Of a stretch of DNA of 31,675 nucleotides, positions 24,679 to 29,038 are shown in pieces; position 1 is the first letter of the stretch; each line of letters begins with the position of its first letter. The DNA lies in IMG/VR virus record IMGVR_UViG_3300008952_000188, positions 1 through 31,675 of that record, one strand, 5' to 3'. Position numbers and translations under genes: made by a program. A model generated the notes under the pieces. That model was given only the letters and a program-made list of their open reading frames with translations. It did no database searches and had not been told where the DNA came from. The stretch comes from a virus.

Positions 24679-25575
24679 CTAAGCTTCCTCAGCTAATTTT
24701 TGGAAATATGATATATTATCATCATCCTGTAACTCAGGGGCCTTTGAGAATTGAACGTCAGAACTAACTTCTTCTTTAGAAGTAACAGGATCAACTGTAT
24801 CTTCTACAGCTTCGAATTGAACTCGATCAGTACCAGACTGAAGTCCCATAATACGTTCAAATTTTTCTTTCAATTCATCATAGGTTTTAAATTTATCCTC
24901 AGCAATCAAATCAGTAAGACTATATTGCTGATTATAAATCTCCTCTAGTTTAGAATCATCTCCACCTAAAAACTCTGAAGTAGGATCAAATTCACTACGA
25001 TCATAATTTACAAATCCGTCTAATGTACGGATCTTTATTTTGAAATCGGCACCTTGCCAGAAATCAAATGGGTTGAGGGGAGTTTCATCTTCAAATTCAG
25101 GATTCATAGATTCTTGAATTTTATCAAAGATTTTCTTCCCATATTTATATAGAAAAACTTTACCGTCATTATCAGGATTAGCTGGATCAGTTATTACATA
25201 AATGTTAGAAACAAATTGTAACTTTCGTTTCTGTTTCCTTGCTTGCTCCTTACCTTGTTCGGTTCCATTATTCCATAAAGAAGTATTAAATTCACTAACA
25301 GGATCTGGAACATTAAGAGTTGTTAAAGAATTCTCAATATACCAACCACCTGGACCTTGAAACCCATGAGAAAAAATTCTAACCCAAGGAATATCTTCAC
25401 CTTCTGGTTGTGGCAAAAATCTAATAACTGCATAACCATTACCTGATTTATCTCTTTCTGGTTTCCATATTCGATCATCATCATATGACTGTCGAGTAGT
25501 TTGAGTTTTCTGAAGCTCACTAGTGAGCTTATCCAAATCTGTTTGACGATTCCGTTTTAAATTCTTAAAAGACAT
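24679..25575 (-). CDS. 32: Single-stranded DNA-binding protein gp32
   Basis: 298 residues (T4: 301). The basic N-terminus (MSFKNLKRNRQTDLDKLTSE) corresponds to the cooperativity domain. The core has NGYAVIRFLPQPEGEDIPWV, FSHGFQGPGGWYIENS, SNIYVITDPANPDNDGKVFL, YKYGKKIFDKIQE, FDFWQGADFKIKI and DGFVNYDRSEFD, closely following T4 gp32. The tail is acidic (PELQDDDNISYF). There is no cysteine in the protein, so the T4 zinc site (three Cys and one His) is absent, as I recall for cyanophage gp32. Role: coats ssDNA in replication, recombination and repair; partner gp59 is the adjacent gene, as in T4. It has its own promoter and terminator; SD AGAGGA. Confidence 0.95.
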   Translation of the reverse strand: MSFKNLKRNRQTDLDKLTSELQKTQTTRQSYDDDRIWKPERDKSGNGYAVIRFLPQPEGEDIPWVRIFSHGFQGPGGWYIENSLTTLNVPDPVSEFNTSLWNNGTEQGKEQARKQKRKLQFVSNIYVITDPANPDNDGKVFLYKYGKKIFDKIQESMNPEFEDETPLNPFDFWQGADFKIKIRTLDGFVNYDRSEFDPTSEFLGGDDSKLEEIYNQQYSLTDLIAEDKFKTYDELKEKFERIMGLQSGTDRVQFEAVEDTVDPVTSKEEVSSDVQFSKAPELQDDDNISYFQKLAEEA

Positions 25576-25655: not shown

Positions 25656-25684
25656 AGTATAACATATTATTCACAGAATGGCAA
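25656..25684 (-). promoter_or_regulatory. Sigma70-type promoter for gp32
   Basis: Minus strand: -35 TTGCCA (25684-25679), 17-bp spacer, -10 TATACT (25661-25656) with an extended-10 TGT directly before it. The -35 overlaps the last codons of gp59. Transcription would start near 25650, leaving about 75 nt of A+T-rich leader with a small hairpin (TAGC/GCTA around 25632-25644) before gp32. The match to the promoter at 28444-28472 supports it. Confidence 0.65.
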
Positions 25685-26261
25685 GTTCTTTTTTTAAAAT
25701 ACCTTTAAATTTTTCGATATCTAAATTAAGAAACTTACCATACTTAGTAATCCTCATTCTCCATTCAGGCCAAATGAGATCATCGTCCAACTGACGATCT
25801 ATTGCTTGGACAAAACCAAGAATTTTATCCAGTATAACAAAAGTTTCAAGACTAATATCTTCCTGATATAAAGCAATTAAAATTATTGCATTATCATCAA
25901 CAACTTTAAACAACTCATCAAAACACTCAACTTTACCAAGCAAAGTATTTATATCAGCCCGAAACACATAAGACAACGACTGAATTCGTTTTTTCCATTC
26001 AGAATAAACTCCTTCAGCATTTTTAATATTGTCTATTCCACCATAGGAATCACCTATTGCAAAATTCGCAATAAGCAATTTCCTAATATCTTCATCCTTC
26101 ATACTCCATGACAAACGATTGAAAAAATGTTTATCCTTTCTTTTTTCAAAGGATTTAACATTTGCTTTCACACCACCGTTGTATTTCACAAAGTCATAAT
26201 TTTCATTAACGAAATGAAGTCTTAATCCCAAATATAATTTGTAGACTTCATACGGTGACAT
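25671..26261 (-). CDS. 59: Helicase loader gp59
   Basis: 196 residues from the ATG at 26261 (T4: 217). Signature: SPYEVYKLYLGLRLHFVNEN, YDFVKYNGGVKANVKSFEKR, KDKHFFNRLSWSM, LLIANFAIGD, then EDISLETFVILDKILGFVQ and ILKKEL at the end, matching T4 gp59 (VYKLYLMIKQHM, YDVIKYN, RDKYFFQKLS, ISFETFILLD). Role: loads the replicative helicase gp41 onto gp32-coated DNA. An upstream in-frame ATG at 26273 exists, but the bases after it spell AGGAG (26270-26266), an ideal SD for the 26261 ATG, so the shorter start is preferred. The gene follows gp33 closely; order 33-59-32 is as in T4. Confidence 0.9.
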   Translation of the reverse strand: MSPYEVYKLYLGLRLHFVNENYDFVKYNGGVKANVKSFEKRKDKHFFNRLSWSMKDEDIRKLLIANFAIGDSYGGIDNIKNAEGVYSEWKKRIQSLSYVFRADINTLLGKVECFDELFKVVDDNAIILIALYQEDISLETFVILDKILGFVQAIDRQLDDDLIWPEWRMRITKYGKFLNLDIEKFKGILKKELAIL

Positions 26262-26265
26262 TTTT

Positions 26266-26270
26266 CTCCT
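26266..26270 (-). promoter_or_regulatory. Ribosome binding site deciding the gp59 start
   Basis: AGGAG on the minus strand, 4 nt before ATG 26261. A longer frame from ATG 26273 would translate this site as Arg-Arg, which argues that the 12-nt extension is not coding. Confidence 0.75.
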
Positions 26271-26530
26271 CATATAGGCAACGTTCCTGTTTTTGGTAGA
26301 AAGTTTAGTTTAATAGCTTCTGCTTCCAATTTTTCCTTTAATGGATTTCCAACCAACTTAGGAACAGATTCTATTTCCAAATTATTATCTTCACAATATT
26401 GCATAATGGCTTCAAGGTATGATATATCATACCTTTTCACATAAATTTCAATATCCTTCATAAACTTCTTGGGATTTGCAATTATACTAGAAACCATTTC
26501 ATATTCTTCATCAGAAATATTAAGTGACAT
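26270..26530 (-). CDS. 33: Late promoter transcription co-activator gp33
   Basis: 86 residues (T4: 112). The middle and C-terminus fit gp33: YDISYLEAIMQYCEDNNLEI (about 34-53), VPKLVGNPLKEKLEAEAIKL (about 56-75), NFLPKTG, comparable with T4 MSYLEATTAFLEENSI and IIEKIQSEAIDENLL. Role: bridges host RNA polymerase (beta flap) and the sliding clamp so that gp55-type late promoters fire in replication-dependent fashion; this fits the late promoter seen at 19135-19148. Its SD appears to be the GGAGG formed by the last two Gly codons of the upstream flagellin homologue, so the two are translationally linked. Confidence 0.85.
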   Translation of the reverse strand: MSLNISDEEYEMVSSIIANPKKFMKDIEIYVKRYDISYLEAIMQYCEDNNLEIESVPKLVGNPLKEKLEAEAIKLNFLPKTGTLPI

Positions 26531-26535
26531 TAAAA

Positions 26536-27429
26536 TTAACCACCTAATAACTGTAGAATACTTCCAGACAATTGTTGTGCTTGAGCCATCAACGCCATCG
26601 TAGTCTGTTGTTGAATTTGCAATTGAGCAAGATTAGCCATTTCTGCAACTTCATCTAAATCTGTAAGTGTAGAAACGGATTCTTCATTCAACTCAACCAT
26701 TGTAGTAAGATGAGAAATTGTAAAATTAAATCTTTCAATTTCTGCAGTCGTACTTGAACGTTCTGTTTCTAACGTAGCAAGGGCCGCATCCAATCTCACA
26801 ATTGCATCTTCTGCAGCACCCTCAGAATCTACATTAGAACTGGCTATAGTAACTGTATCCCCAACAGACCATATTCCACCATTTCCGTTATCCGCACCGA
26901 CTAATGAATGATTTGCATCCAAAACAACATCATGAGTACCAATACCCAATCCTTCTAGAGTTAAATCCCCCAAAGAAATATCAACATTCTGGTCCTCCTT
27001 AGGACCACCAATCGTAACTTCTCTTGTACCAAAAGTTCCATCAAGTAATGAAGTTCCATCATATTCAGTATTAAGAGCTGTCCAATCAATTTCAGATGCT
27101 AGGTTATTATATTCATCAACTAGAGCTGCCCGAGCTACAGATGTTAACTGATCATCTTGAGCTTCATATGCAACCTCTCGCATTTTAACTACAATCGATT
27201 CAACTGAATTGGTTCCTGCAAGCGCAGATTCTAGCAAATCCTGATTTTGCTTAACAATACTATTAGCAGCTTTTAAACTACTAATTCGATTATTAGTCCG
27301 ACTAACTCTAACTTCATCATGTGAACTCAGTTCAGGTTTTCCTGATGCCAATCTCTGCATAGATTCTTCAATTTGTCTAGTCGCTTCCTGATATCTACTT
27401 AACGCTGTTGCAGTAATTCCACTTAACAT
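26536..27429 (-). CDS. Flagellin homologue encoded by the phage
   Basis: 297 residues from ATG 27429, which has GGAG 6 nt upstream; an in-frame ATG at 27447 is possible. Both conserved flagellin ends are present. N-terminal D0/D1: ALSRYQEATRQIEESMQRLA-SGK, RISSLKAANSIVKQNQDLLE, VVKMREVAYEAQDDQLTSVA, DEYNNLASEIDWTALNTEYD, GTSLLDGTF. C-terminal D1/D0: RLDAALATLETERSSTTAEI, RFNFTISHLTTMVELNEESV, AEMANLAQLQIQQQTTMALM, AQAQQLSGSILQLLGG. The central part (about 125-205) is short and beta-rich, like small flagellins with no large outer domains. Known role of flagellin: helical filament subunit secreted by the type III flagellar apparatus. In a phage it could be a virion filament, a decoy or a filament modifier; none is proven. 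It sits between a 70-residue ORF and gp33. Confidence 0.9.
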   Translation of the reverse strand: MLSGITATALSRYQEATRQIEESMQRLASGKPELSSHDEVRVSRTNNRISSLKAANSIVKQNQDLLESALAGTNSVESIVVKMREVAYEAQDDQLTSVARAALVDEYNNLASEIDWTALNTEYDGTSLLDGTFGTREVTIGGPKEDQNVDISLGDLTLEGLGIGTHDVVLDANHSLVGADNGNGGIWSVGDTVTIASSNVDSEGAAEDAIVRLDAALATLETERSSTTAEIERFNFTISHLTTMVELNEESVSTLTDLDEVAEMANLAQLQIQQQTTMALMAQAQQLSGSILQLLGG

Positions 27430-27470
27430 ACAATTCTCCGTTTTCATCTTTCATACACTTTATAAGGTTT

Positions 27471-27683
27471 TTAAACTGTTACATCTAAAATAGAACCCAT
27501 ATTTTTGGGTCCAGTCATCATACTAACATTTTCGTTAGTAGAAATATGTTTCTTCTCTCTTTCGTGAATAGACAACTGAGTTGCCAATTCTGCTCTTGAA
27601 GCCGCCTTTATTGATTGCACCTCCTGAAATACTCGATAATAGTCCATACTGGACATCTTTTGTAATCCGTAAGTATTAATCAT
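27471..27683 (-). CDS. Small protein between tmRNA and flagellin homologue
   Basis: 70 residues with a strong SD (AAGGAGGG, then TAAAAA before ATG 27683), so it is very probably translated. It is helical and polar (YYRVFQEVQSIKAASRAELA, TQLSIHEREKKHI), then Asn/Ser/Met-rich, ending MGSILDVTV. No membrane segment and no cysteine. I recognise no family. Its place immediately upstream of the flagellin homologue suggests a dedicated partner, for example a chaperone, export or assembly factor, or second filament component; this is inference only. Confidence 0.7.
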   Translation of the reverse strand: MINTYGLQKMSSMDYYRVFQEVQSIKAASRAELATQLSIHEREKKHISTNENVSMMTGPKNMGSILDVTV

Positions 27684-27719
27684 TTTTTACCCTCCTTAAA
27701 TCGTGGCGACTCTTATATC

Positions 27720-27952
27720 TCATCGGTGGCCGCCTCACCTTCCTATAATCGCTTGGATCTACTGTAGACACTTGGGATTATAGTAGGGGATTCTGTTGAC
27801 AGGTTCCCCATTGACCCCGGCATCACCTATTAGGCGGCCATGGCGTAATTTATAGTATTGCCTTTTACTTTTGTTATCCTTATTGGCGATAACGACCACA
27901 GGTAATCTCCCCACAACCATTGTCCCATCGGTCGAAATCCATGTACACCCCC
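27720..27952 (-). other. tmRNA coding piece with its helices
   Basis: Begins at G1 (27952). Helices seen: GTTATC/GATAAC (27893-27888 with 27878-27873), in the place of the pseudoknot before the tag. A 9-bp perfect helix pairs the end of the tag (27840-27832) with 27735-27727, like P5 of standard tmRNA. Inside it are GGGGA/TCCCC around CTGT..ACAG, and an 8-bp stem CTATAATC/GATTATAG (27783-27776 with 27750-27743). The 3' end is approximate. Confidence 0.75.
27827..27862 (-). other. tmRNA proteolysis tag reading frame
   Basis: Codons GGC AAT ACT ATA AAT TAC GCC ATG GCC GCC then TAA TAG give the candidate tag GNTINYAMAA, ending like the E. coli tag (NYALAA) with a hydrophobic-Ala-Ala end suited to ClpXP-type proteases. 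The resume codon is assumed to be GGC (Gly), preceded by AAAAGTAAAA; a start one or two codons earlier cannot be excluded. Confidence 0.75.
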
Positions 27953-27956
27953 ATAA

Positions 27957-28016
27957 TGGTGGAGGTGAGGGGAATCGAACCCCTGTCCCTAATGTCAACT
28001 GTTTATGGATCAACAA
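27957..28016 (-). other. tmRNA acceptor piece
   Basis: About 60 nt ending in encoded CCA at 27957, with T-stem, canonical T-loop TTCGATT and the 3' strand of the acceptor stem. The 5' boundary is set only by the end of the preceding gene (stop at 28017-28019) and may lie a few bases either way. Confidence 0.75.
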
Positions 28017-28415
28017 TTACAAGTCCTTAATTCTATTTCTAAGTTCTGTGCTAGACCAACCATGATCTCTACTAAAATATTTAATTGGACCAAGTCCAAA
28101 ACCAGTTATTTCCTCAGGAGACTTATTTTCATAATCAGAACCCAAAAATCTTATGTCCCACTTTATCCATTCTAACCAATTATACAATTCTTCTTCTGTT
28201 TGATATACTAAAATATCATTAACATACTTACAACCTTCAAGTTGAATTTTTCTTTCAAATAAAGACTGAATCGGTTTATTTTTCTCTTTACGATCAACAC
28301 TAGGATCTTCCTGTAACATGACAACTAGTGTATCGCAATTATCTCTACAATCCTTTAAAAAAAGGACATGTCCTGCATGAAATAAATCAAACGCTCCGCA
28401 AGTTATACCTTTCAC
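28017..28415 (-). CDS. Cytidylyltransferase-like nucleotidyltransferase
   Basis: 132 residues from a GTG at 28415 with AAGGG about 8 nt upstream. HxGH signature in ITCGAFDLFHAGHVLFLKDC (HAGH at 13-16), central RKIQLEGCKYVNDILVY, DIRFLGSDYENKS, and C-terminal SSTELRNRI (121-129), the ISSTxIR-type motif. This is the glycerol-3-phosphate cytidylyltransferase/HldE adenylyltransferase superfamily (PF01467). Known reaction: transfer of CMP or AMP to a sugar- or polyol-phosphate, producing an activated donor for surface polymers. CTP versus ATP and the substrate cannot be read. It follows a good sigma70 promoter and directly precedes the tmRNA, suggesting cotranscription. Confidence 0.8.
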   Translation of the reverse strand: MKGITCGAFDLFHAGHVLFLKDCRDNCDTLVVMLQEDPSVDRKEKNKPIQSLFERKIQLEGCKYVNDILVYQTEEELYNWLEWIKWDIRFLGSDYENKSPEEITGFGLGPIKYFSRDHGWSSTELRNRIKDL

Positions 28416-28443
28416 AATGTTTACCCTTTTTTATTATAACTAT

Positions 28444-28472
28444 ATTATACCATATAAAACTTGAATTGGCAA
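28444..28472 (-). promoter_or_regulatory. Sigma70-type promoter for cytidylyltransferase and tmRNA
   Basis: Minus strand: -35 TTGCCA (28472-28467), exactly 17 bp, -10 TATAAT (28449-28444) with extended-10 TGG just upstream. It lies in the 71-bp gap after the oxygenase gene. The start would be near 28437, about 22 nt before the GTG. It is the best promoter match in the window and shares its -35 and spacing with the gp32 promoter. Confidence 0.8.
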
Positions 28473-28486
28473 GCTAAAAGAACAAT

Positions 28487-29038
28487 TTATTTTTTCAATT
28501 CCCTATCCCACAAATTCATAACAAAAGTATGACGCTCCCCCGAAAAAATTTCAGAAACTCCATGAAACAAATTTCCTGGATCCAACACTATTAATCTATT
28601 ATGTTTATATGAAATTTTTTCATAACATCTATCATCGAATTTGTGGAAATCATATGGTTTAGTCCCATATTTTTCATCAACAAAATAATGATATCCACCA
28701 TCCACAACAGAATATTTTGGATAAGTAATTATACTACATTTTGGATGAACCATAATATTTTCACTATTCCAAAGATCTTCATCTTTATCTTGGTGCATTT
28801 TCAATTCTCCACCTTTCACTCTAGTAGCCCACCAATACTCAACACCCTTATATTCATCCCGATTAACAATTCCCAATTTATTTAAAGTTATATCAATATA
28901 CTGTTCTTTCAGTGTACAATTTCTAGTATCAAAATCCCACCACATCATATCAGAATGAGAACCACCTTCACTCATGGGATTAGCATCAAAGAAATTTTCA
29001 CCAATATCCATAACCTTAAAATTGTCCATCACTATCAT
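28487..29038 (-). CDS. 2-oxoglutarate/Fe(II)-dependent oxygenase-like protein
   Basis: 183 residues from ATG 29038, chosen because GGAGG (29049-29045) lies 6 nt upstream; a GTG at 29056 would put that site inside the gene. The iron-binding triad is visible: H82 and D84 in LKMHQDKDED, and H159 in NLFHGVSEIFSGERHTFVMN, with R169 ten residues later for 2-oxoglutarate. Family knowledge: hydroxylation or demethylation of nucleic acid, protein or small molecule; such proteins are common in T4-like marine phages with unknown substrates. The start overlaps the 3' end of the upstream membrane-protein gene. Confidence 0.8.
   Translation of the reverse strand: MIVMDNFKVMDIGENFFDANPMSEGGSHSDMMWWDFDTRNCTLKEQYIDITLNKLGIVNRDEYKGVEYWWATRVKGGELKMHQDKDEDLWNSENIMVHPKCSIITYPKYSVVDGGYHYFVDEKYGTKPYDFHKFDDRCYEKISYKHNRLIVLDPGNLFHGVSEIFSGERHTFVMNLWDRELKK

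Follow-up and report, generated by a model that had tools for sequence, protein, structure and literature searches.

A circularly permuted tmRNA gene with a 4-nt linker and additional 3' elements in a T4-like phage contig

Does a T4-like phage contig carry a working tmRNA gene in circularly permuted, two-piece form, and, if so, where does the gene end and what kind of tmRNA does it encode? The stretch of DNA analysed here (hereafter the window), a virus record, is 31,675 bases long and holds T4-like baseplate, tail, and replication genes. A preliminary description, made from the letters alone, had assigned it to a T4-like phage and placed a permuted tmRNA on its minus strand; both assignments hold.

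The permuted gene and its limits

We find that minus-strand positions 28026-27696 form a circularly permuted (two-piece) tmRNA gene (Table 1). In a cmscan search it scored 84 bits (E 6e-15) against a gathering score of 47 for tmRNA_permuted (RF04321, a model described in PMC11915505), 52 bits for alpha_tmRNA (RF01849; barely above the cut-off of 50), and 67.7 bits for beta_tmRNA (RF01850; below the cut-off of 84). On the minus strand the 3' half of the acceptor ends at 27957 and the 5' half starts at 27952, which is the permuted order. The preliminary description had these core coordinates right (the CCA end, G1, and a 4-nt linker), and its acceptor stem with G3-U70, canonical T-loop, and tag GNTINYAMAA with double stop can likewise be read in the sequence. 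It had found the right locus and drawn the gene too short, since the block conserved between the window and its relative L031 (84% identical), which coincides with the RNA gene, spans 28026-27696. On one side of the gene thus delimited, a cytidylyltransferase-like open reading frame (ORF) has its stop codon at 28017; on the other lies the ribosome-binding site of a 70-aa ORF. Of the programs proposed earlier for checking the gene, Infernal places it above the RF04321 cut-off, whereas ARAGORN, though it recovers 98 of the 122 viral or phage loci on which it was run, misses the window tmRNA along with those of L108 (an identical copy) and L031.

Table 1. Features of the tmRNA gene and of the genes that follow it (window positions)
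Feature	Position	Strand	Sequence or content	Basis or remark
Acceptor piece	27957..28026	-	P2 3'-side strand, T-arm, acceptor 3' strand, discriminator A, encoded CCA	RF04321 alignment; L031 block starts 28026
T-arm	27984-27968	-	AGGGG-TTCGATT-CCCCT	
Acceptor 3' strand and CCA	27967-27957	-	CACCTCC-A-CCA	
Intervening segment, 4 nt	27953..27956	-	UUAU	Predicted in acceptor-hairpin loop before processing; length fixed by pairing of both acceptor strands
Acceptor 5' strand	27952-27946	-	GGGGGTG	G1 = 27952
Coding piece	27696..27952	-	G1, D-like loop, P2 5' strand, PK1, tag, P5, PK2, PK3-position stem-loop, PK4-position pseudoknot	Conserved block ends 27696
PK1	27873..27898	-	S1 UGGU/GCCA, 27898-27895 with 27887-27884; S2 GUUAUC/GAUAAC, 27893-27888 with 27878-27873	
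Tag frame	27862-27833	-	GGC AAT ACT ATA AAT TAC GCC ATG GCC GCC (GNTINYAMAA)	Stops TAA TAG, 27832-27827
P5 local hairpin	27819..27839	-	GGC-CGCC[UAAUA]GGUG-AU-GCC	Contains stop codons; minimum-energy fold
PK2	27784..27818	-	GGU/ACC and GGGGA/UCCCC	With conserved ACCUGUCAACAGAA
PK3-position element	27743..27783	-	8-bp stem CUAUAAUC/GAUUAUAG	With conserved CCAAG loop motifs
PK4-position H-type pseudoknot	27705..27739	-	GGUG/CACC, 27739-27736 with 27728-27725; GGCGGC/GUCGCC, 27734-27729 with 27710-27705	
70-aa ORF	27683-27471	-		Ribosome-binding site 27697-27690
Flagellin-like protein, 303 aa	26536-27447	-		Pfam Flagellin_C 1e-12, Flagellin_N 5e-9
gp33 homologue	26270..26530	-	Late-promoter transcription regulator	PHROG 254
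gp59 homologue	25671..26273	-	Helicase loader	PHROG 269
gp32 homologue	24679..25575	-	Single-strand DNA binding	PHROG 224

The two pieces are linked by P2, which by eye and in the covariance-model alignment pairs as GUUG/CAAU in the window and L031 and as GUCG/CGAU in L007 and L124, with some mismatches in its outer part. The 26-nt acceptor hairpin has a predicted folding energy of -12 kcal/mol (z -2.5), and the D-like loop is two bases longer than the Rfam consensus. The tag of the window ends in MAA, not LAA; among relatives with a readable frame the pattern G-N/E...MAA is retained although the codons differ (GNSINLPMAA, GNDYELQMAA, GNSYELQMAA, and GEYNQLPMAA).

Folded elements of the coding piece

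Comparison with relatives shows pairing that outlasts sequence change. S1 of PK1 is replaced entirely and still paired (UGGU/GCCA, CGUU/AACG, GAGA/UCUC), PK2 contains a double-sided change from A-U to U-A and has a similar motif in the alpha_tmRNA consensus, and four of the eight pairs of the PK3-position stem are altered on both sides among five sequences. At the PK4 position, S2 pairs fully in all seven sequences, as against 6 of 40 combinations in which strands were swapped among them. Taking the P5 base, PK2 stem, and PK3-position stem together, all 80 cells are paired in the five full sequences, and both partners differ in 5 of the 16 pairs; none of 500 shuffles, a control that ignores kinship, matches the paired percentage, and pairing falls to 40-56% when partners are slid by 1-3 columns. 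A held-out relative, L255, which contributed nothing to deriving the structure, forms all eight pairs of the PK3-position stem (CUAUAGUC/GACUAUAG) and, at the PK4 position, GGUAG/CUACC and GCCGCA/UGCGGC, the former a double change in S1 relative to GGUG/CACC of the window. By this comparative evidence PK1, PK2, and the PK4-position element are supported as pseudoknots. The PK3-position element is unproven as one, a second stem having been sought by eye with nothing convincing found; its stem is missing in L055 and L078, where the last pseudoknot is retained.

P5 itself is best placed as the local hairpin of Table 1, whose outer three pairs are present in five of five sequences while its inner pairs vary in position among relatives. 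The 9-bp P5-like helix proposed earlier (27840-27832 with 27735-27727) is a genuine complementarity, reached by only 12 of 2,000 shuffles; as a conserved P5 we rejected it, because no more than 5-7 consecutive pairs, G-U included, survive in six relatives. Its 3' strand is the 5' strand of PK4-position S2, which pairs instead with 27710-27705.

The preliminary description overlooked the two extra elements at the 3' end, which are absent from typical two-piece tmRNAs and, as judged from sequence, are maintained by compensatory change. They might alternatively form a leader of the downstream gene, outside the tmRNA, since the ribosome-binding site of the 70-aa ORF follows closely on them. We consider this rather unlikely: L007 and L030 are nearly identical until 9 nt past PK4, where some 850 additional bases begin in L030, and the block shared by L031 and the window likewise ends just past PK4, with about 870 additional bases following in L031 and a different next gene. 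Because the conserved blocks end just past PK4 while the next gene differs, the extra elements appear to go with the tmRNA. Both inserts (708-1552 in L030) start just past the tmRNA 3' end, as if this were an insertion site.

Relatives, linker length, and genomic place

We scanned viral contigs with a pattern for permuted acceptor stems separated by linkers of at most 25 nt, which returned at least 119 stretches. Requiring a paired acceptor stem gave 120 loci among the matches listed, the window included, 118 of them with the D-loop motif; two viral and six genome matches lacking that motif were left out before counting. Linkers in the viral matches listed range from 1 to 25 nt, with 4 nt in 19 loci and 5 nt in 14, and these matches comprise 83 distinct core sequences, 11 of which have the 4-nt linker. 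The RNA, or part of it, is common to the window and ten further viral contigs, the close relatives being L108 (identical), L031, L007/L030, L043, L124, L055, L078/L086, and L255 (truncated). Relatives are found in phage contigs that carry gp32, gp33, or gp59. L255 came from a 3'-domain pattern search that was unspecific (at least 119 stretches) and otherwise returned known loci, and was identified by its genes; another such search gave two already known loci and no new relative. When isolated phages were searched by blastn for a close relative, only S-CAM1 and S-CAM3 matched, across 76 of 421 bases, and nothing matched for three other short-linker groups.

The same pattern, applied with linkers of at most 12 nt to genome contigs of 84,980 species, yielded 75 stretches, 55 with a paired stem and 49 of these with the D-loop motif. 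The linker is 4 nt in 44 of the 49, mostly from Accumulibacter and other Rhodocyclales. Alphaproteobacterial linkers, measured in 35 of 38 sampled loci (three were left out), span 5-58 nt; these genes escape the pattern because it demands a canonical T-loop. The 4-nt linker is thus short, yet not confined to phages. The preliminary description called it notable; we considered it as a unique trait and rejected this, since many viral contigs have linkers of 1-5 nt and the usual length in Rhodocyclales chromosomes is 4 nt. A single nucleotide separates CCA from G1 in L054, L102, L107, L076, L036, L117, and L162, which derive from viral contigs and one Rickettsiales metagenome-assembled genome. 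The Rhodocyclales-like permuted tmRNA of L191, labelled Mycobacteriaceae, probably reflects a misbinned contig.

Downstream of the window tmRNA, and likewise on the minus strand, come the 70-aa ORF, the flagellin-like ORF, gp33, gp59, and gp32. This setting, also overlooked in the preliminary description, recurs: of 117 viral tmRNA loci, 48 have gp33, gp59, or gp32 no more than 6 kb downstream in the same orientation, and no such marker is placed otherwise in these 117 (among the matches listed, with window proteins as queries), while gp33 is present in 32 of the 64 listed loci that have at least 3 kb downstream. These counts do not represent independent events, since near-duplicate contigs are numerous and the composition of the sample depends on the linker limit. 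Among best-ranked matches, the gp32 of the window has its closest counterparts in marine cyanophages (57%), followed by Melnitz and pelagiphage HTVC008M (55%), and from these neighbours we take the phage to be marine. The flagellin-like ORF between the tmRNA and gp33 has homologues in ten related viral contigs (identical in L108, 65% in L031, about 35% in seven others, and also in L255); against 50,697 phage records it matches only two unannotated Listeria phage records.

A motif that we take to be a T4-type late promoter, NATAAATA, stands upstream of 21 of 78 distinct viral tmRNAs among the matches listed, whereas other stretches of these loci lead one to expect 1.75; some of the 78 are close relatives. 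In 16 of the 21 listed it lies 50-54 nt before the T-loop, so that transcription could start at the 5' end of the acceptor piece. Examples include L004, L018, L053, L059, L083, L106, and L123 (about 1500-1510); no such motif was found upstream of the window tmRNA. The late-promoter core TATAAAT (PMC9004378) also occurs inside the tag frame of the window (27854-27848, minus strand), where it may be chance because that strand of the window holds 21 copies of the motif. Melnitz has TATAAATA near the upstream place as well, yet PMC9004378 calls its promoter early.

Affinities and probable function

Phage two-piece tmRNAs are a kind already known, having been published in 2022 for Methylophilales phage Melnitz (MZ577097, PMC9004378), also near gp33, with 53 two-piece forms among phage genomes (PMC9004378). 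The preliminary description therefore made too much of finding a permuted tmRNA in a T4-like phage; what sets the window apart is the near absence of a spacer and an unusually large folded tail. Melnitz is likewise a marine T4-like phage with the gene upstream of gp33, gp59, and gp32, but its intervening segment is about 140 nt and its T-loop of the alpha type, as against 4 nt and a canonical T-loop here. A glutamine riboswitch is reported 3' of its tmRNA (PMC9004378), whereas a search of window positions 27000-28500 returned none at E values up to 10. Melnitz also lacks the extra 3' domain: R1, our covariance model of the post-tag domain, scores 142-165 bits in full members of the window group and 13.2 bits over 29 positions (E 0.38) in Melnitz. 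The permuted tmRNA of cyanophages S-CAM1 and S-CAM3 is phage-borne too, with a 5-nt spacer after the acceptor strand; it differs in having no encoded CCA, the tag ANTSDSAANNIVAFSRSTVAA, and a 3' domain without an R1 match. These genes (L002 2940-3254 and L003 2940-3254) are not annotated as such in their records.

Relevant passages of PMC3985003 give two-piece tmRNAs as typically having PK1 and PK2 only, and those of PMC3968760 give them fewer pseudoknots than one-piece forms. The window gene shares with one-piece tmRNAs carrying PK1 to PK4 the order PK1, tag, P5, and three 3' elements, and differs in being permuted and in a PK3-position element supported as a stem-loop. With the alphaproteobacterial form (RF01849) it shares gene order and the PK2 motif with CAACAGAA. 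All 35 measured alphaproteobacterial loci have a T-arm of the GC[A/G]GT[A/G]C type and the alpha genes read stop after PK2, whereas the window, while scoring above the alpha cut-off, has a canonical T-loop and further 3' elements. The Rhodocyclales form (RF01850) shares the canonical T-loop and typical 4-nt linker, but the window falls short of its model (67.7 against 84 bits) and R1 has no match in the class to which Accumulibacter belongs (274 genomes). In alphaproteobacteria R1 matches 53 of 385 sampled genomes, at best with 35.8 bits; these two groups made up the R1 genome searches. As to a bacterial source, R1 points weakly, through PK2, to alphaproteobacteria. A tree of 51 rows sets apart an alpha clade of 14 rows (100/99) from every phage row, that of Melnitz included; its deeper order is unsettled, with several long branches and unsettled bootstrap values. 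We raise tentatively, as somewhat less probable than its contrary, that the gene represents a phage-borne permuted lineage apart from the three bacterial ones, which would have kept PK1-PK4 while its gene was permuted and its spacer shrank to 4 nt, so that a single RNase P cut would split it, and which in marine T4-like phages would be an inherited part of the gp33-gp59-gp32 module and not a sporadic host gene.

The gene is a genuine phage two-piece tmRNA, and we think it probable that it works and serves ribosome rescue, a role also raised in the preliminary description. Compensatory changes in the helices and amino-acid-level conservation of the tag argue for selection on the RNA. We infer that this tmRNA would be functional, would become two pieces through a single RNase P cut followed by trimming, and would rescue ribosomes during infection. 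It would be co-transcribed with neighbouring genes, and its acceptor stem would form a hairpin around an 8-nt loop, ACCAUUAU; a cut by host RNase P would then fall before G1, the UUAU remaining on the acceptor piece would be trimmed back to CCA, and the acceptor stem and P2 would hold the two pieces together. After charging with alanine by host alanyl-tRNA synthetase, host SmpB and EF-Tu would bring the tmRNA to ribosomes stalled on broken mRNA, where the nascent chain would receive A-GNTINYAMAA, a target for host proteases. The likely benefit would be a continued supply of free ribosomes during the degradation of host and phage mRNAs. SmpB was found in none of 13 phage records, Melnitz and S-CAM1 included (the window represents 31.7 kb of its own genome), with a search control positive in 10 of 14 genomes, and host SmpB is therefore presumably used.

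The failure to find SmpB in these records, together with a tag terminating in MAA instead of LAA, would also fit an RNA that is expressed mainly for another role, either as a decoy titrating host SmpB or in tagging host proteins for amino-acid recycling, the latter proposed for Melnitz (PMC9004378). This seems unlikely to us; a decoy would need neither a reading frame, a double stop, nor PK1, and the tag is conserved. Still less probable is a host gene that was captured and is now decaying or fails to mature, the 4-nt linker being too tight for processing. ARAGORN's silence on the window and the two surplus bases in the D-like loop would suit such a gene, but compensatory change in several helices and the conserved tag indicate selection, and a 4-nt linker is presumably processable, given its presence in 44 of the 49 bacterial short-linker matches with the D-loop motif, mostly Rhodocyclales. 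Chance resemblance is excluded for the window tmRNA by an E value of 6e-15, and bacterial contamination of the contig is contradicted by its T4-like genes and the ten further viral contigs sharing the RNA or part of it; nothing was found in favour of either.

If the working two-piece tmRNA is as we read it, an RNA that is permuted and yet has extra conserved 3' elements would mean that loss of pseudoknots need not accompany permutation. The 4-nt linker would offer a minimal substrate for studying how a permuted tmRNA gets split. Finally, in many T4-like phage contigs such genes regularly sit beside those for late transcription and replication, a placement suggesting that the rescue of ribosomes is a standing phage function.
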